Positions 1,682 through 38,068 of a stretch of 42,278 nt of DNA are shown piece by piece (the first letter of the stretch is position 1; each line of letters begins with the position of its first letter). The stretch is from an uncultured Eubacteriales bacterium. Lineage in GTDB: Bacteria; Bacillota; Clostridia; Oscillospirales; Oscillospiraceae. Made by a program: the position numbers and the translations under genes. The stretch is from the NCBI GenBank assembly GCA_949296115.1, contig CASFNR010000030.1, positions 1-42,278 on the forward strand. Direction: 5' to 3'. The notes under the pieces are model-generated. The model saw nothing but the letters and a program-made list of their open reading frames with translations. It did not search any database and was not told the origin of the DNA.

Positions 1682-2764
1682 TTAATGGACGAAGATGTTA
1701 ACCAACAGATCGGTTATTATCACCCAAAGTGCAACCACTGCAAAGTCTACGATGCCCATACCAAACCATCTGACCCACTTCTTTTTGCTATGGGTCAAAA
1801 TGAAATGCCTCTGGACATTGAGATAGTTGCCGTTGAAAAGAACGATGCACAGGGACATAACTGTGAAAGCAATCCGATTGATAATCAGCTCAAGGATGCC
1901 GGCATTTTCAACCTGCAGATCCAGGCCTACTGCGATTAGCGCAGCATAGCCCACTGCAGAGAACAACCACTTGATCACATTGGAATTCCGGAATCCGGGT
2001 GGAAGATACTTTTTCCAGTTTTTCTTCTTGGGACTGCTGCTAGGCTTGTTGGAAAGACCTGCTAACACATCTTGAAGTTGCGTGATGCTTTGATAACGGC
2101 CAGAAGGTGACAGTTCTACGCACTTTCTGATGAGCTTGCTGATCTGGCCGCCAGCAATTCTCTTATTAGGCAGTTCTCCTGTGAGCATGACATTCATCAG
2201 CACGCCGACAGAGTAGATATCTGACAGTACACTGGAGGGGCCAAAGCCATACTGCTCCGGTGCAGCATAGCCTTGGGTGCCCAGCAGAACGGTGTCCTTC
2301 GCTGCGTGCTCGTTGCTCCACTTGGCAGCATTCATGTCCAGCAGCTTGACGATGCCGTCTGGAGAAATTTTGATATTGGAAGGCTTGATATCCCGGTTCA
2401 CAATGGCCGGCGTGCAGCTGTGAAAGTCGGCCAGAATGGAACACAGCTGAACTGTGATCTCAATTACCTGATCCTCAGGCAGTGTGCCCTGTTGTTCCAA
2501 GATCTCTTCCAGCGTGTCGCCCGGAATATATTCTTCGATGACTGTCAGAATCTTACCATCTTCCTCGACAAGGATGATTTTCGGGGTATTGGGAATAGGA
2601 TGCTTTTGCAGGTAGCGATAGACTTCTGCATTATAGGTCGTCAGCAGCTTCTTGACATAGAATTTCTGGGTTCTGACATCCTGTACCAGATAGATATGAT
2701 GCTCTGCATTTATATCCGCAACCTGCTGGTAGTAGGACAGGTTCAGTTCCTGCTCTATGGTCAT
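1682..2764 (-). CDS. Membrane-anchored Ser/Thr protein kinase-like protein
   Basis: A 360-residue protein with a Hanks-type kinase fold at about residues 10-240: the ATP-site lysine region FYVKKL (K38/K39), hinge IEEYIPG, catalytic loop NRDIKPSN (D125, with N replacing the usual H of HRD), DMN instead of DFG (143-145), APE (168-170) and SDIYSVGV. No glycine-rich loop is evident. After a basic linker (about 240-262), three hydrophobic segments (about 264-283, 290-312, 334-358) should anchor it with the kinase inside the cell. A known family keeps activity with such changes, so it may be active or a pseudokinase. The ATG is preceded by AAAGGGG. It is divergent from the 153-residue HTH-like gene, a likely partner or substrate. 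Confidence 0.87.
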   Translation of the reverse strand: MTIEQELNLSYYQQVADINAEHHIYLVQDVRTQKFYVKKLLTTYNAEVYRYLQKHPIPNTPKIILVEEDGKILTVIEEYIPGDTLEEILEQQGTLPEDQVIEITVQLCSILADFHSCTPAIVNRDIKPSNIKISPDGIVKLLDMNAAKWSNEHAAKDTVLLGTQGYAAPEQYGFGPSSVLSDIYSVGVLMNVMLTGELPNKRIAGGQISKLIRKCVELSPSGRYQSITQLQDVLAGLSNKPSSSPKKKNWKKYLPPGFRNSNVIKWLFSAVGYAALIAVGLDLQVENAGILELIINRIAFTVMSLCIVLFNGNYLNVQRHFILTHSKKKWVRWFGMGIVDFAVVALWVIITDLLVNIFVH

Positions 2765-2784
2765 CCATGGAACCCCTTTCCAAA

Positions 2785-2805
2785 TATGTTAAAATAAGTA
2801 TATCA
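2785..2805. promoter_or_regulatory. Divergent extended -10 promoters between kinase and HTH-like gene
   Basis: In the 66-bp gap, TGTTAAAAT on the plus strand and TGATATACT on the minus strand are both extended -10 elements, overlapping back to back. No good -35 hexamers are seen. The two genes are therefore likely transcribed divergently and could share control. Confidence 0.5.
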
Positions 2806-2830
2806 CACGAATGCAAGTGAGGGAATCTTT

Positions 2831-3292
2831 ATGGCAAAGAAATCTACCGATGAGTTGGAAGACATCCTTGGCCAGACCTCGACAAGTAACATCGAGACGT
2901 ATCTGGCAGAGAATGCAGAGAATATGCTGGCTGAGGAACGCCCCTTCTCTGTGTATATGCATGAGATGGTCCGCAAGTACGGTAAAACGCAACAGGAGGT
3001 TTTCCTGCAGGCAGACTTTCCGGAACGCTTTGGATATAAGATTCTGTCTGAGGAAAAGCATACCAAGCAACGGGATTACATCATCCGCATCTGCTATGCT
3101 ACTGGAATGAGTCTGGATGAGACCCAGAGGGCGCTTACCTTGTATGGCATGGCACCGTTGTATGCTCGAATCCCCAGAGATGCGGTATTGATGATCGCCT
3201 TCAACCAGCACAAGGGTAATATCCTGGACGTAAATGCGCTACTGTCTGCGCATAAGCTCCCAACACTTAAAACCTCGGGTACGCTGGAGTAA
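2831..3292 (+). CDS. 153-residue HTH-like protein beside the kinase
   Basis: A soluble 153-residue protein. Residues about 35-135 look like an XRE-type helical bundle: PFSVYMHEMVRKYGKTQQEV, then a helix-turn region FGYKILSEEKHTKQRDYIIR, then MSLDETQRALTLYGM. Similar proteins occur in gut Clostridia next to kinase genes, from memory. A Ser/Thr-rich N-terminus (STDELEDILGQTSTSN) offers plausible phosphorylation sites. The ATG follows GAGGGA by 6 nt. It is divergent from the kinase and followed directly by the lipoprotein promoter. Inferred role: a transcription factor or adaptor controlled by the kinase. No enzymatic motif is seen. Confidence 0.75.
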   Translation: MAKKSTDELEDILGQTSTSNIETYLAENAENMLAEERPFSVYMHEMVRKYGKTQQEVFLQADFPERFGYKILSEEKHTKQRDYIIRICYATGMSLDETQRALTLYGMAPLYARIPRDAVLMIAFNQHKGNILDVNALLSAHKLPTLKTSGTLE

Positions 3293-3296
3293 TAAT

Positions 3297-3344
3297 TCCC
3301 CCTTTTCGGGGGCAACATCTGAAATTTGACTTTGATATAATTGT
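3297..3344 (+). promoter_or_regulatory. Copy B: palindrome plus -10, lipoprotein promoter
   Basis: A CCCCC-TTTTC-GGGGG palindrome starts 5 nt after the upstream stop codon and is followed by TGATATAAT (3333-3341), an extended -10 about 52 nt before the lipoprotein ATG. The same block with identical spacing occurs at 1627-1674. The palindrome may be an operator. Confidence 0.6.
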
Positions 3345-3393
3345 TTCGCAAAGCAAACCCTAAAACTTACTGAAACAAGGGAGAGAAACAATT

Positions 3394-4323
3394 ATGGCAA
3401 AGAAAAGCAAGATGCTGTTGGCATTGGTGTTGGCGTTAGTGATGGTCATGGCGACTGCCTGCTCCAGCAGCGAGGATGTAAAGGAACCTGCAAGTGTCAA
3501 TGGCGATTCCAGCGTTACTTCAGACAACGAATCTTCTGGTGGCAATTCCGATAATGAGGCAGAAGATAACACTGCTGCAGAAATCACTGTTGCGGAGACT
3601 GTCCTGTACGATGTGGACGGTGTGAAGGTCACTGCTACTGGCTATGAAGAAGGCTGGACCGGACCCGAGATCAAGATCTTGGTAGAGAACAACTCAGACA
3701 AGAACGTTTTGGTCACCTCTTCTTCCGTGTCTGCCAATGGCTACATGATGCCTTATGCAGCTCTGTATGCTGAGGTGGCAGCAGGTAAGAAGGCCAATGA
3801 AACACTGAGCCTTATGTCTTCCGAGCTGGATCGGTCTGGCATTGAAGTTTTGGCTGAGCTTCAGTTCTATCTGCAGATCCAGGATCCCGAAACTTGGGAA
3901 ACTGTGGCAACTTCTGAACTGTTGACGCTGACTACTTCTGCAGCACCCTATGAGCAACCGGTCGACGACTCTGGCGATGTTCTGTACGACTCCAATGGTA
4001 TTCGAATTATCTGCAAGGGTCTGAAGCAGGATATTATCTGGGACGGCACCGTTGTGTTCTACATGGAGAATAGTAGCGGCAAGGACATTTCCATCTACGC
4101 CGAAAATGTGTCCGTAAATGGATTCATGCAGGATGTTGGACTGTGGTCTGATTTGCGCCCGGGTACCAAGCTGATCGATGGTATGTCTATGATTGACTTG
4201 AGCGATCTGGAGATTGAAAGTATCGACCAGATTGAGAATATTGAATTCAATCTGCGTGTGGTCGATGCAAACACCTGGGAAGATATTGTGACCACCGATG
4301 TTTTGACCCTGACCTTTGAATAA
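3394..4323 (+). CDS. Secreted lipoprotein with two repeated domains
   Basis: A 309-residue lipoprotein: positively charged start, hydrophobic stretch 8-20, then MATAC with C23 as the likely lipidated residue. An acidic Ser/Asn/Asp-rich linker (24-65) resembles the low-complexity spacers of Gram-positive lipoproteins. Two copies of a beta-rich domain follow, about 68-180 and 195-309. Each begins with an LYD-x-(D/N)-G-(V/I) motif and ends with a V-TSELLTLT or V-TTDVLTLT type strand. The fold resembles immunoglobulin-like extracellular domains; ligand unknown. ATG preceded by AAGGGAGAG. Own promoter (copy B) and terminator. Probably the cell-surface partner of the adjacent kinase/HTH pair. Confidence 0.8.
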   Translation: MAKKSKMLLALVLALVMVMATACSSSEDVKEPASVNGDSSVTSDNESSGGNSDNEAEDNTAAEITVAETVLYDVDGVKVTATGYEEGWTGPEIKILVENNSDKNVLVTSSSVSANGYMMPYAALYAEVAAGKKANETLSLMSSELDRSGIEVLAELQFYLQIQDPETWETVATSELLTLTTSAAPYEQPVDDSGDVLYDSNGIRIICKGLKQDIIWDGTVVFYMENSSGKDISIYAENVSVNGFMQDVGLWSDLRPGTKLIDGMSMIDLSDLEIESIDQIENIEFNLRVVDANTWEDIVTTDVLTLTFE

Positions 4324-4335
4324 TACTATGCCAAG

Positions 4336-4370
4336 AATGTCTCCGACTCGACAGTTGGAGACATTTTTTT
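4336..4370 (+). terminator. Terminator of the lipoprotein gene
   Basis: A 9-bp stem AATGTCTCC/GGAGACATT (4336-4344 with 4357-4365), 12-nt loop and seven Ts. Confidence 0.9.
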
Positions 4371-4463
4371 CTTTGCACTTTCGCCGTTTCAGTTGCATCT
4401 CTTATTTTTTCTACTACATCGACACCCTACGTGGGGTTTTTCACCGCGCTTATTCTATAAATA

Positions 4464-4735
4464 GTGTGTAGAAACGACACACCTGAGCCAGGCCTCATGG
4501 AAACATGAGAAAGCTCACAATAGAATGAGTTAGGTGATTGAATGATCAATGGTTTTGGTGTCCCCTTAAAAATGCGTGTTGAGGTGACTTACTAAGGCAC
4601 AGTTTCACGCATTAATTCATGCAAAATGCCTACCTTCTTGGCCAAAAGAAAAATGGGTCAAGAAAGAGCATGGGACACTTGTAACCATTTTCAGCACACG
4701 ACATTGCATTAGTGTAATGCCGTGTGCATTATTTT
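4464..4735 (+). ncRNA. Candidate structured RNA, unassigned class
   Basis: There is no credible ORF, but there are many phased helices: GTGTGT/ACACAC (4464-4482); TGAGC/GCTCA (4484-4517) enclosing CTCATG-GAAA-CATGAG; ATTGA-ATGA-TCAAT (4537-4550); a closing stem of 8 bp (4557-4564 with 4672-4679); inside it an 8-bp stem (4571-4578 with 4606-4613) and a 9-bp stem (4635-4643 with 4656-4664), forming a three-way junction. A terminator-like hairpin (4694-4727) followed by a T-rich stretch ends it. No convincing -35 was seen upstream, so it may start at TATAAA (4456-4461) or come from read-through. I cannot place it in a known RNA family. Confidence 0.65.
4694..4735 (+). terminator. Terminator ending the structured RNA
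   Basis: GCACACG and CATT (4694-4705, one unpaired A) pair with AATG and CGTGTGC (4716-4727, one unpaired C), followed by ATTATTTTTAT. Confidence 0.75.
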
Positions 4736-4765
4736 TATCGATTTTTAGGTGCAGAGGACCGCCCT

Positions 4766-4802
4766 CTCCAGTTCGATTTGAAATTCAAATTGAACTGGAG
4801 GT
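4766..4802 (+). promoter_or_regulatory. 15-bp hairpin covering a ribosome-binding site
   Basis: CTCCAGTTC (4766-4774) pairs with GAACTGGAG (4792-4800), continued by a G-T pair and ATTTG/CAAAT around a 5-nt loop. The 3' arm contains the GGAG of the GGAGGT site for the ATG at 4810, so the folded RNA should block translation. Confidence 0.65.
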
Positions 4803-4809
4803 AAATGAT

Positions 4810-4929
4810 ATGGCTCATAGAAATGGGCATCAAAAAACAGGTGATGACTACCTGCGTGCACGCTTTACAATGTGGCTGAATACGACGCTGATCCACGCAA
4901 AGCTCCGTTATCTGGATACACACAGGTAA
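4810..4929 (+). CDS. 39-residue sigma-factor-like fragment
   Basis: A short protein starting MAHRNGHQKTGDDYLRARF and ending RYLDTHR. It resembles, from memory, the first 40 residues of sigma-70-like factors carried by clostridial conjugative elements, which normally continue for about another 100 residues. Here a TAA follows immediately, so it is either a truncated remnant or a free-standing small protein. The ATG at 4810 is chosen for its GGAGGT site 7 nt upstream, which is buried in a hairpin. The upstream in-frame extension runs through the structured RNA and is not believed. Confidence 0.45.
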   Translation: MAHRNGHQKTGDDYLRARFTMWLNTTLIHAKLRYLDTHR

Positions 4930-4963
4930 GGTAGAATAAGTTGCGCAAAATGGAATAAGGCAA

Positions 4964-5575
4964 ATGTATCAAGAGTATTCAGAAGAAATCGCCAATGCGA
5001 TTCAGGGTTTCCTGGACGATGGGGATTGGCACTATGATTTCCAGGAAGAAAAAGGAATTTTTCGCTTCGGTTTAAAGCTGAAATGCAGGATCCGAAATAT
5101 CCAGTACATCATTGACTTGGATACTACCGACTACAATGTGTACGGACTCATTCCCCTTTCCGCAAATCGTAATGACCCAAATGAAATGGCACAAATGGCT
5201 GAGTTTTTGTGCAGGGCAAATTACGGGCTTCGAAACGGCAACTTTGAATTGGATTTCCGTGATGGCGAAATTCGTTACAAGTGTTATGTCGACTGTCAGG
5301 GCTTGGATGCACCTACAGAGGACATGGTTAAACATAGCATTTACTGTCCCGCCGCCATGTTTGAACGCTATGGCAACGGTATTCTGCAGATTCTGTTCGC
5401 AGGAATGTCGGCAGAAGAAGCAATCTCTCTGTGTGAACCGACGCAGCAGGAGGAGGAACCCCAGGAAGGTGATGAAGCGCAGAAGAGAAGTTCCTCCATT
5501 ACAAGCATCAGACGGGATACTCCTGATGAAACTTTGAAACGATTCTTACAGATTCTTCATGACGAGACGGATTAA
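4964..5575 (+). CDS. YbjN-domain protein
   Basis: A 203-residue soluble protein. Residues about 5-155 match the YbjN-type fold: alternating strands such as YIIDLDTTDYNVYGLIPLSA, a helix NEMAQMAEFLCRANYGLRNG, then FELDFRDGEIRYKCYVDCQG and a long helix ending in MSAEEAIS. This family resembles type III secretion chaperones and is of unclear function. The C-terminus (about 165-203) is charged and probably disordered. The ATG follows AATAAGG by 4 nt, a modest site. It lies 34 nt after the sigma-like fragment and may share its transcript. Confidence 0.75.
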   Translation: MYQEYSEEIANAIQGFLDDGDWHYDFQEEKGIFRFGLKLKCRIRNIQYIIDLDTTDYNVYGLIPLSANRNDPNEMAQMAEFLCRANYGLRNGNFELDFRDGEIRYKCYVDCQGLDAPTEDMVKHSIYCPAAMFERYGNGILQILFAGMSAEEAISLCEPTQQEEEPQEGDEAQKRSSSITSIRRDTPDETLKRFLQILHDETD

Positions 5576-5709
5576 GGCAGGCATGGCCTGGAGAAAACAC
5601 AACAGCACCTGGACTTGCACTGGCGTTTAATGTGACGCTGGCAGAATGCTTAAATGTTGAGAAATGGAATAATGATTCCTTCGATGATGATACAGACGAA
5701 GAACAATGA
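5563..5709 (+). pseudogene. C-terminal remnant of an unidentified gene
   Basis: An open frame of 48 codons with no start codon or ribosome-binding site, ending TGA just before a terminator. Its translation includes LALAFNVTLAECLNVEKW and an acidic tail DDDTDEEQ, protein-like composition rather than noise. It looks like the 3' end of a gene whose front was lost by deletion into the YbjN gene. Identity unknown. Confidence 0.35.
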
Positions 5710-5710
5710 C

Positions 5711-5742
5711 AAAAGCTGGTGAGCAGAAGCCCACCAGCTTTT
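5711..5742 (+). terminator. Terminator after the remnant
   Basis: A perfect 11-bp stem AAAAGCTGGTG/CACCAGCTTTT with a 10-nt loop. It could act in both directions. Confidence 0.8.
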
Positions 5743-5804
5743 GGTTGGTTAATCAAAAGAAATATCTGATCAATTCCGCCCTGACCTGTCGTGAAACCTG
5801 TACC

Positions 5805-5881
5805 CCGCGACGATGCGCGACGGTTACGACGATTGCGACGGTGATTTTGGGGGCGGTAGTTTTATCGTCGCACCGTCGCGG
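5805..5881. repeat. Left arm of a 77-bp inverted repeat
   Basis: This segment is the reverse complement, at roughly 85-90 percent by eye, of 6531-6607. It is built of GCGACGRTT-like 9-mers and can itself fold (GCGACG blocks on the left, CGTCGC blocks on the right, around a G-rich centre). Confidence 0.7.
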
Positions 5882-6304: not shown

Positions 6305-6814
6305 ATGTCAAAAACAAAAGAAACGACCGCCCGGAACCCATCTGTTGGCGCAGATGGAGGGCAGCCGTCCAAAATGTACACACTCAGTATAGCAGAAACG
6401 GAAGACGAATTCAATGAAAACTTTTCCGAATCCCAAGACTTTTTTCACAAGCTCCAGCGGGCGAAGGTGTCAGACAATCCGGCGGCCGGATTATCCTCTG
6501 AACCGGCACCGAAACCCTGCCGTGCGATAATGCGCGACGATGCGACGATAAAACACCACCCCCAAAAACACCGTCGCAATCGTCGCAACCGTCGCGCATC
6601 ATTGCGGAGAGAAGTCCCTGGCCTGTTAGGAAGACAATCAGATCCACTAAACAACACTAGCCGGAGGCCGTCGGGGATTGGGGGAACACCCAACAGGCCC
6701 TGGGTGGGGAAAGAATTTTCCTCACTTAGGGATCCTGTTCTCCCCTTTGTCGCCACAGAAAGCAAAATAAAATACAAAATTGATTACAACCGAGTATCCT
6801 GTGAGGGAGGTTGA
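6305..6814 (+). CDS. Uncharacterised ORF; only the N-terminal third looks like a protein
   Basis: A 169-codon frame with a good AAAGGAG site 5 nt before the ATG. Residues 1-55 (SKMYTLSIAETEDEFNENF region) have ordinary protein composition. From about residue 56 the frame runs through the right arm of the 77-bp inverted repeat, giving Arg-rich low-complexity sequence (HRRNRRNRRASLRRE), and through non-coding-looking DNA. The original gene was probably interrupted by the repeat. It has no membrane segment and no recognised domain. It lies in a recombinase module, so a mobile-element accessory role is the likeliest context. Confidence 0.4.
   Translation: MSKTKETTARNPSVGADGGQPSKMYTLSIAETEDEFNENFSESQDFFHKLQRAKVSDNPAAGLSSEPAPKPCRAIMRDDATIKHHPQKHRRNRRNRRASLRREVPGLLGRQSDPLNNTSRRPSGIGGTPNRPWVGKEFSSLRDPVLPFVATESKIKYKIDYNRVSCEGG
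6531..6607. repeat. Right arm of the 77-bp inverted repeat
   Basis: It contains GCGACGAT twice in tandem (6535-6549) and CGTCGCAAT/CGTCGCAAC/CGTCGCGC (6572-6597) as 9-bp-spaced units. It pairs with 5805-5881. Confidence 0.7.
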
Positions 6815-7093: not shown

Positions 7094-8704
7094 ATGAACG
7101 AAAAAAACAACCGGGTCTGCTGCTTGTACCGTGTGTCCACGGATAAGCAGGTTGACCATAACACCAATAACGAAGCCGATATTCCCATGCAGCGCAAGGC
7201 CTGTCATCGGTTTGCAGAAAAGATGGGCTGGCAGATCGTCCACGAGGAGCAAAAAGAAGGCGTGTCCGGACATAAAGTCCGGGCCGCCTCCCGGGACAAG
7301 CTCCAGATCATCAAAGACGAGGCAAGGAAAGGAAATTTTGACATTCTCCTGGTGTTTATGTTTGATAGAATCGGTAGAATTGCGGATGAAACACCATTCG
7401 TGGTGGAATGGTTTGTAAAAAACGGAATCCGTGTGTGGAGCACCCAGGAAGGGGAGCAGCGCTTTGACAACCACACGGACAAGCTCCTCAATTATATCCG
7501 ATTCTGGCAAGCAGACGGGGAAAGTGAGAAGACGGCCATTCGTACCAGAACCAGCCTGGGACAGATGGTGGAGGAAGGACACTTCAAAGGGGGAGTTGCG
7601 CCTTATGGATATGCCTTGGTAAAAAGCGGACGCTTCAACAAAAAGAAGCATGAGCTTTTCGACCTGCAGGTAATCCCGGAGGAGGCAGTCGTTGTGAAAC
7701 TGATTTTCCGTAAGTACGTGGCAGAGGGGTACGGCGCACAGCGAATAGCCACATACCTGAACAATCTGGGTTACCGTGCAAGAACCGGGAAAATGTGGCA
7801 CCATGCTACCATCCGAGGGATTATCACCAATCTGACCTATACCGGTGTCCTTCGCAGCGGAAAAAGCCGGTCGCAAGTCATTCCGCAGCTGCAGATTATC
7901 TCCCCGGAAGAATTTGAACGAGCCCAGGAGATTCGCACTGCCCGTGCCAATCAGGCGGAAGAAACGAGAACGGTACCTCTGAATACCAAAGGAGAGTCGC
8001 TGTTGTCTGGCAATGTGTTCTGTGCCCATTGCGGTGCACGCTTTAGCCTGACCACCAATGGAAAATATCGCCGCAGGGCGGATGGAACCATTGATAATGT
8101 CCAGAGAATCCGTTATGTGTGCTACGGAAAAACCCGGAAGCAGACGGACTGCGATGGACAGACAGGGTATACCATGCACATTCTGGATGGAATTGTGGAA
8201 AAGGTGGTGCGGCAGGTTTTCGCCAGAGTCCGGGGGATTTCCCGGGCAGAGCTGGTGGGGAGACGGTACCGGCAAATCCAGGCGGAACGAAAAATGCACC
8301 TGACAGATGTTACGGCAAAGCTGCAAAAGGCAGTGCAGGATGTAGAACTGCTGAAAGCGGAGGTGCTGAAGTGCCTGAAAGGGGAGAGTGCCTTCTCAAA
8401 GGAAATGCTGGCAGCCATGATTGCGGAGGGGGAAAAAGAATGCACCGCCCTGGAAGAGTCCCGACAGGCGGCGCAGGTGGAAGTAGAACAGAGTGCGCAG
8501 CAGTTGGAAGCCATCGGGGAGCAGTATGACAAACTGATCTCCTGGGCAGAGCTGTTTGACAGCGCCAGTCCTGCTGCCAAGAAAATGATTGTCAATCAGC
8601 TGATCAAGCGAGTGGATGTGGGAAGAGGTTATCAAGTGACCATTACCTTTCACTTCAGCTATCAGCAATTTCTCGATGGGCTGGATACCCCGCTCTCCGC
8701 ATAA
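7094..8704 (+). CDS. Large serine recombinase
   Basis: A 536-residue site-specific recombinase. The N-terminal resolvase domain (about 5-150) carries the nucleophile in LYRVSTDKQ (S15) and the conserved FMFDRIGR. A recombinase domain (about 160-285) includes GGVAPYGY and the ITNLTYTGVL region. The zinc ribbon has C310/C313 (CAHC) and C343/C353. A coiled-coil, about 390-485, is followed by a beta-rich C-terminus, the layout of phiC31/TndX-like integrases. Full length, so probably active. Such enzymes integrate and excise phages and conjugative elements using short attachment sites. The ATG has GTGAGG 8 nt upstream, within a hairpin. The next gene to the right is a tRNA-Ala beside a duplicated tRNA fragment. 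Confidence 0.95.
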   Translation: MNEKNNRVCCLYRVSTDKQVDHNTNNEADIPMQRKACHRFAEKMGWQIVHEEQKEGVSGHKVRAASRDKLQIIKDEARKGNFDILLVFMFDRIGRIADETPFVVEWFVKNGIRVWSTQEGEQRFDNHTDKLLNYIRFWQADGESEKTAIRTRTSLGQMVEEGHFKGGVAPYGYALVKSGRFNKKKHELFDLQVIPEEAVVVKLIFRKYVAEGYGAQRIATYLNNLGYRARTGKMWHHATIRGIITNLTYTGVLRSGKSRSQVIPQLQIISPEEFERAQEIRTARANQAEETRTVPLNTKGESLLSGNVFCAHCGARFSLTTNGKYRRRADGTIDNVQRIRYVCYGKTRKQTDCDGQTGYTMHILDGIVEKVVRQVFARVRGISRAELVGRRYRQIQAERKMHLTDVTAKLQKAVQDVELLKAEVLKCLKGESAFSKEMLAAMIAEGEKECTALEESRQAAQVEVEQSAQQLEAIGEQYDKLISWAELFDSASPAAKKMIVNQLIKRVDVGRGYQVTITFHFSYQQFLDGLDTPLSA

Positions 8705-37874: not shown

Positions 37875-38068
37875 TATTAGGCAGAAGATACGGAGCCGTC
37901 CCGGGGAAACAGGTGCAAAACCTGTGCAGTGCCGCTACTGTGACGATGATTCATCGGAGCCAGATTACCGGACGGCGGTGAAACGCTTCCGCGCCGCGAG
38001 CCACGGCCGCCGGAGGATTCCAGGCCATGCCCGGGGTGCCTCTTGCGGGGTTCCGGCATGGCTTTTTT
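37875..38068 (+). promoter_or_regulatory. Cobalamin riboswitch with terminator platform
   Basis: Conserved cobalamin-aptamer landmarks appear in order: GGAGCC, GGGGAAACAGG, CAAAACCTGTGCAGTGCC, GCTACTGTGA and AGCCAGATTACC (37890-37970 or so). They are followed by an expression platform: CCATGCCCGG (38025-38034) pairs with CCGGCATGG (38053-38061, one bulge) with a run of six Ts at 38063-38068. High cobalamin should favour the terminator and shut off hemC-cobA/hemD-hemB. Exact aptamer ends are approximate. Confidence 0.88.

Follow-up and report, generated by a model that had tools for sequence, protein, structure and literature searches.

A leader with a 17-codon ORF upstream of a sigma-like regulator gene in integrative elements of Oscillospiraceae: a candidate for control by translation

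The leader and its surroundings

The window analyzed here is a stretch of 42,278 nt from contig CASFNR010000030.1 (assembly GCA_949296115.1), and all leader coordinates are window positions. The leader is on the plus strand, upstream of a truncated gene for a sigma-70 region-4-type protein (4810..4929). Only the first 39 codons of this gene are left, followed by a stop codon and unrelated sequence. The fragment shares 68% sequence identity over 38 aa with the sigma-like protein of one of the relatives described below (L049; tblastn, E 9e-15).

The leader is preceded by a promoter-like block (4419..4463), which was delineated in an alignment of five copies and consists of TCGACACC ... CGTGGGGTTTTTCACCG ... 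TATAAATA, the last of these at 4456-4463. One copy (L062) ends in TATAAAAT instead of TATAAATA. The block includes a TATAAA similar to a -10 box. At the proper distance from this TATAAA, inspection by eye revealed no good sigma-A -35 box, and a sigma-70 promoter scan lists no promoter at the block. At the presumed transcript start is a short dyad (GTGTGT-n7-ACACAC, 4464..4482), of which 4 bp are retained in the relatives' consensus. This dyad could equally well work as an RNA hairpin or as a DNA operator.

Further downstream, a Shine-Dalgarno-like ribosome site (AGGTGAT, 4532..4538) is followed by an ORF of 17 codons (4542..4595), which encodes MINGFGVPLKMRVEVTY and ends with a stop codon. In the first-pass annotation, the region from 4464 to 4735 had been described as a gene-free stretch, which is not borne out, as the ORF and its ribosome site (4532-4595) are inside it. 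The ORF is followed by an intrinsic-terminator-like hairpin, GCACACGACATTGCATTAGTGTAATGCCGTGTGC, with a T-rich tail (4694..4736), and by an inverted repeat, CTCCAGTTCGATTTG...CAAATTGAACTGGAGG (4766..4801), within which most of the sigma-like gene's ribosome site (GGAGG) is located.

Several other features of the window were recorded. A module at 1682-4323 consists of a Ser/Thr protein kinase gene, a 153-aa ORF and a 309-aa ORF, and parts of it match G019, G013, G486, G032 and G442. The 309-aa ORF has no Pfam match and has a lipoprotein-like start (by eye); it is found upstream of the leader also in L055/L063. A pair of inverted copies of a ~75-bp repeat (5805-5880 and 6533-6607, 91% identical) is located ahead of a serine recombinase; G483, G437, G447 and G020 contain additional copies. 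An AdoCbl (cobalamin) riboswitch is found at 37877-38019 (53.9 bits; threshold 50). A cluster of eight tRNAs (212-1250) is beside a small HTH gene. In L049, three tRNAs (5180-5839) are between the leader and a 117-119-aa ORF adjoining a ParM-like gene, as if they were element-borne. There are 46 tRNA matches in G000, 43 in G427 and 43 in G449, numbers which decide neither tRNA carriage nor the idea of a tRNA-Tyr/His sensor (see below).

Related copies and element context

Five copies of the leader were compared, which stem from three genomes and one metagenomic contig: the window copy, L055 (the metagenomic contig, from a viral collection), L045 and L062 (both from G449) and L049 (from G427). 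Two of the hosting genomes are Oscillospiraceae assemblies from roe deer gut. When the 7.9-kb surroundings were compared by BLAST to 101 genomes of the genus, G449 matched with 81% over 78 nt of the 5' part of the leader and G427 with 71% over window positions 4659-4922, which cover the leader end and the sigma start. L055 and L062 were found via the sigma-like protein, independently of the leader sequence. The common layout is a promoter-like block, the 17-codon ORF, the terminator-like hairpin 95-98 nt further on, a hairpin at the ribosome site and a sigma-70 region-4-type protein. In all four relatives, the region is directly before an open sigma-like gene, and this supports the earlier proposal of a leader for the sigma-like fragment. 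The same proposal had named the YbjN gene as a possible target. Three YbjN relatives were detected in 300 genomes of the family (L046-L048), and these stretches have no BLAST match to the leader. The YbjN gene is thus not counted as part of the conserved unit, and it was rejected as the regulated gene.

The ribosome site of the ORF is exactly 3 nt before its ATG in all five copies, and the ORF is 17 codons long in each of them (peptides of the relatives: MINKIYTPKGLRVEVPY, MKRSDRNVNLKSVEVKH, MKTSILNRAMLSSEVSY and MKVVRKNNTGRSAEVTH). All five copies thus have a short predicted ORF with a putative ribosome site in front of the regulated gene. The ATG is 267-269 nt upstream of the sigma start, and the distance from the presumed transcript start to the sigma ribosome site is 338, 340, 338, 338 and 338 nt. 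Because the entire leader is constant in length, the fixed length of the ORF is, on its own, weak evidence for coding. Each of the remaining two frames has at least one stop codon in every copy; this is also weak support, as these stops are mostly due to the conserved ATGA and TGAGG. Pairwise identity is 17-61% for codons 2-13 (61% for the closest pair only, 17-50% for the others) and 67-93% for codons 14-18, stop codon included. The conserved end reads GAG-GTK-NNN-YAC-TAA, and hence codes for EVx[Y/H] followed by the stop. Its GAGGTG is itself Shine-Dalgarno-like with respect to the presumed 16S tail. When paired with this 16S end, the ORF tail reaches -7.3 to -12.6 kcal/mol; the background averages -3.1, and three of the five copies pass its 5th percentile (-10.1).

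The inverted repeat at the sigma ribosome site is an MFE hairpin in all five copies. GGAGG is predicted to be wholly or nearly wholly paired in four of them, while its last three bases are free in L055. As in erm-type control, the ribosome site of the regulated gene would thus be buried in a hairpin, in L055 only partly. The arm energy of -4.0 computed for L062 understates its hairpin, as the segment boundaries are off. Apart from each other, the hairpin arms have just one partner in the 16 best section pairs, namely the ORF tail, with which they pair weakly (mean z -1.14).

In L045 and L049, the two relatives that were scanned, the sigma-like protein matches Sigma70_r4_2 (Pfam), and its gene is followed by HTH_16 and a recombinase, which is a Tn916-type integrase in L049 and a serine recombinase in L045. 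We take the sigma-70 region-4 and HTH_16 proteins to be the equivalents of orf7 and orf8 from Tn916. This orf7/orf8-like arrangement, with a recombinase, is present in L045 and L049 and absent from the window. Further element genes that were found code for an integrase, a ParM-like protein, DUF3854, RecD2, YqaJ, CobT/VWA and AAA proteins. Among the genes scanned (in L086, 7 of the 17 ORFs with at least 180 aa in 19.9 kb) there is no relaxase or secretion gene. As this covers only part of the genes, the element is called ICE-like. The window has no part of the HTH_16, ParM-like or tyrosine integrase proteins of the relatives, and its serine recombinase (7094-8704) shares only 24% sequence identity with that of L045. 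With its sigma gene broken off after codon 39, the leader copy is orphaned in the window. It probably no longer controls transfer there and would be a remnant; that the YbjN-like gene now downstream has adopted it is conjecture.

The distribution of the leader is narrow so far. A leader pattern with up to 3 mismatches occurs in 7 of 136 genus genomes and is exact in three of these (four places), which is not independent proof, since the pattern was built from these copies. Four places with 3 mismatches lack the TAA and were counted as chance. The pattern of the promoter-like block is found in 3 of the 136 genomes, at a single place each. Of 300 family genomes, the only one with a match to the leader pattern (up to 2 mismatches) is that of the window. 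In a DNA search of 60 relatives, one 24-nt match came up besides the copy in the window. Some match at E <=1 was obtained for 192 of 394 genomes of the order (two candidates scored per genome), and among the matches listed, all except the window's own span at most 39 nt. Two phage records have a 39-nt match (E 0.03), and plasmids have no DNA match to the leader. The sigma protein is encoded in 4 of 136 genus genomes (five places; G753 and G002 lack the 17-codon leader), in 2 of 117 order genomes and in 3 of 293 class genomes, one of the latter being the same place again. It was not found in plasmids or phages at E 1e-5.

Other loci with this sigma regulator also have mini-ORFs. A short ORF preceded by a Shine-Dalgarno sequence is upstream of the sigma gene in 8 of 12 loci, compared to 0.68 expected from shuffles, under an ORF rule written after the ORFs were known and applied to 350 nt of upstream sequence (185 nt for L057). 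The cases other than the 17-codon ORF are ATG-TTC-stop in L060 and L075 and ATG-TTC-ATC-stop in L076; they precede the sigma gene by about 120 nt. The strict rule finds no ORF upstream of sigma in L061, L057, L080 and L081; in L080 and L081 it misses an ATG-TTC-stop behind GGGGGTGA, which was recognized by eye. Extra hits of the strict rule are a nested 6-aa ORF in the window and a second ORF in L060 (MRGRN, then stop). Excluded from the 12 loci were repeated occurrences of the same places (L001, L003, L033, L041, L053, L054, L058, L059, L063-L067, L070, L071, L074 and L079), contigs starting inside the terminator-like hairpin (L056, L077, L078 and L082), weak partial matches (L083-L085) and chance pattern hits (L068, L069, L072 and L073). 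We read mini-ORFs before this sigma regulator as a theme, which does not prove a common origin of the two kinds. In L060, L075, L080, L081 and L076, the mini-ORF has a strong ribosome site and is followed by a GCATGCCA/TGGCATG-like hairpin and by another hairpin, located at the ribosome site of the sigma gene. Their arms share AUGCC/GGCAU, so the two hairpins might swap partners.

Predicted RNA structure and the search for a switch

The first-pass annotation had proposed a riboswitch-like RNA or a free ncRNA of ~270 nt, with a three-way junction and its own terminator, and had named a shuffled-sequence control and a comparison of homologues as checks. The window copy (4464-4735) folds with -90.2 kcal/mol and is more stable than dinucleotide shuffles (-65.0, sd 5.1; z -4.93, 0 of 200 as good), and this still applies when the final hairpin is removed (z -3.92, 0 of 200). 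The minus strand is equally stable (z -5.15), so the fold is little informative about the transcribed strand. The helices described earlier do occur in the MFE and centroid structures of the window copy: the GTGTGT/ACACAC hairpin, a GAAA-capped stem (CUCAUG/CAUGAG, 4494..4509), a multi-branch domain (~4548-4689) around two inner stems, and a hairpin (4694-4727) with a T-rich tail. A long-range stem, P1 (4548..4689), pairs the middle of the ORF with ~4672-4689 and closes the three-way junction. Stem P2 (4571..4613) is predicted to pair AAUGCGUG in the ORF tail (4571-4578) with CACGCAUU (4606-4613) and encloses the stop codon.

The relatives do not share most of this fold. Without the terminator-like hairpin, their leaders are ordinary in stability (z -1.69, +0.12, -0.67 and -1.68; n=4). 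The GAAA-capped stem is missing from the five-copy consensus fold. Only the window and L055 have a clear P1, which is built from different bases in the two. P2 is in the consensus fold, yet its z-score against column shuffles is just -0.55 (75 of 300 as good). Outside the terminator-like hairpin, the consensus fold of the five copies reaches z -0.81 against column-shuffled alignments (52 of 300 as good). The first 65-68 nt, when folded alone, have z-scores of -4.43 (window), -3.34 (L055), -3.09 (L062), -1.81 (L049) and +0.21 (L045), and their consensus signal is modest (z -2.19, 14 of 300 column shuffles as good; five copies). Among the homologues, the terminator-like hairpin is thus kept and the first 65-68 nt to a modest degree, but not the rest of the fold. 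No Rfam family matches over the leader at its gathering threshold in the window and the four relatives, and the matches from a permissive search of 4300-4960 are all below their gathering scores. A known RNA family was rejected on this result. A group II intron or other ribozyme, suggested by the GUGUG start, had no Rfam support and was dropped. A riboswitch with a conserved three-way junction was rejected on the z-scores of the relatives and the consensus control. What is conserved is the ORF end, the fixed spacings, the terminator-like hairpin and the hairpin at the ribosome site, not the three-way junction. The lesson is that a striking fold of a single sequence can mislead.

Regarding the putative terminator, the hairpin itself is conserved: both sides have changed in 5 of 15 pairs of the five-copy alignment, and the arm-to-arm duplex energies range from -14.5 to -29.6 kcal/mol. 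The T-run is weak in L055 and L049 (by eye), and a simple terminator scan of the window does not list the hairpin at 4694-4736. A ribosome stalled at the ORF stop codon could not cover this hairpin, which is 95-98 nt away. A classical antiterminator formed among the ORF tail, the region after the stop codon and the terminator was sought in section-pair energies (best 16 pairs) and equilibrium models, and none common to the five copies was found. The ORF tail pairs with the 5' arm of the terminator at a mean z of -1.46, which is unfavored in L045 (+0.3) and L049 (-0.7). The strongest competitor in these 16 pairs joins the 5' arm to the segment downstream of the hairpin (mean z -1.85); it is strong only in L055 and L062 and is made too late to prevent termination. 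When bases were blocked as by a stalled ribosome, hairpin pairing was not lowered in equilibrium models (four states, five copies). As long as the 3' arm has not been made, the 5' arm is predicted to pair with the transcript 5' end in the window and L045 and elsewhere in the other copies, with no common partner.

Interpretation and comparison with known systems

The anatomy of the region (promoter-like block, upstream ORF (uORF), terminator-like hairpin, buried ribosome site and regulator gene) is that of a translation-dependent leader. Our preferred reading, which we consider moderately probable, is that the leader is a translated uORF that gates the regulator of a mobile element. The region would be the 5' regulatory leader of the regulator operon (sigma-70 region-4 and HTH_16) of an integrative, ICE-like element. 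From this anatomy we infer transcription, translation, pausing, readthrough and a signal. A transcript starting near 4464 would carry the 17-codon uORF, then the terminator-like hairpin and then the hairpin at the ribosome site of the regulator. Ribosomes would translate the uORF and would probably pause near GAG GTK NNN YAC TAA. The ribosome may then change the passage of the polymerase through the hairpin, the opening of the regulator's ribosome site, or both. As a result, the element would respond to the state of translation. That the leader could sense the charging of tRNA-Tyr or tRNA-His (last codon TAC or CAC) is put forward as an idea only.

That neither an antiterminator nor an overall consensus RNA fold was found also fits a region that acts as DNA, namely a promoter/operator with an insulating terminator, where the blocks bind the element's own regulators, the hairpin stops transcription coming from upstream and the short ORF, whether translated or not, has no regulatory effect. 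Much of the conservation, namely of the promoter-like block, a CGACAC repeat and the dyad, could be at the DNA level. However, the promoter-like block is upstream of the hairpin, so that a transcript from it would have to pass this hairpin to reach the sigma gene, and while most of the ORF drifted, its ribosome site, its open frame and its five terminal codons were kept. We regard this explanation as possible but doubtful. It is improbable that the 17-aa peptide is itself the product, encoded by a short transcript terminated at the hairpin and acting on a protein as a small regulator, signal or antidote. The promoter-like block, ribosome site and terminator-like hairpin would indeed make up a complete small gene, but codons 2-13 are poorly conserved (17-61%), which fits a pause element better than a free peptide, and the peptide has no hydrophobic export signal (by eye). 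More improbable still is a structured RNA, be it a riboswitch or a free ncRNA with a three-way junction, as the first-pass annotation had it. The stability of the window copy (z -4.9), the formation of P1 from different bases in the window and L055 and the signal in the 5' 65-68 nt speak for it; the ordinary z-scores of the relatives' leaders, a consensus no better than column shuffles and the lack of an Rfam match leave it unsupported.

Building on the translated uORF as the preferred reading, a wider and rather speculative proposal can be made. The leader might represent a new type of stalling uORF (17 codons, with EVx[Y/H]-stop over an internal Shine-Dalgarno-like site), which senses translation before a master regulator and has a shorter cousin (MF-stop) in related elements of other families; many Tn916-like modules might then be gated by mini-ORFs. 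If true, such a uORF would couple transfer to translation stress through the master regulator, with no resistance gene in the circuit. To our knowledge, the trigger that switches on resident integrative elements is known in detail for only a few of them. Among the titles and abstract openings listed in searches of the open literature, none describes this leader.

The elements carry a further RNA, the pemK RNA motif (RF02913), ~450 nt after the sigma gene. It is a distinct RNA at a distinct place and was found in four of the four relatives scanned (L055, 2433-2496; L058, 999-1062, minus strand; L059, 2366-2429; L062, 2368-2431). An Rfam scan did not detect it in the window.

Among known leaders, MsrDL, which precedes msrD, is described as stalling the ribosome at a UAA stop codon before an intrinsic terminator (PMC10314930). 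The leader analyzed here is similar in having a short UAA-ended ORF and a terminator-like hairpin before the regulated gene. MsrDL is, however, only 6 aa long, differs in sequence, and its stalled ribosome obstructs the terminator, (PMC10314930), while here the stop codon is 95-98 nt away from the hairpin. The ToiL uORF of topAI-yjhQ, which senses translation stress, is a precedent for the control of non-resistance genes (PMC12121999). For ToiL, which is from E. coli, translational repression and Rho-dependent termination are described (PMC12121999), whereas the candidate here is an intrinsic-terminator-like hairpin.

A parallel in gene content is Tn916. In common are a short ORF and stem-loops ahead of genes controlling excision and transfer, a sigma-70 region-4 protein with a second small regulator and, in L049, a Tn916-type integrase. 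The stem-loops of orf12 in Tn916 are considered to hold back transcription of tet(M), and orf7 raises the expression of xis/int (PMC7288454); attenuation is relieved by tetracycline, orf12 being the tetM leader peptide (PMC9154091). The Tn916 attenuator precedes a resistance gene and was proposed to reach orf7 indirectly (PMC7288454). Unlike in Tn916, the uORF described here immediately precedes the sigma gene, and the arrangement includes no resistance gene.
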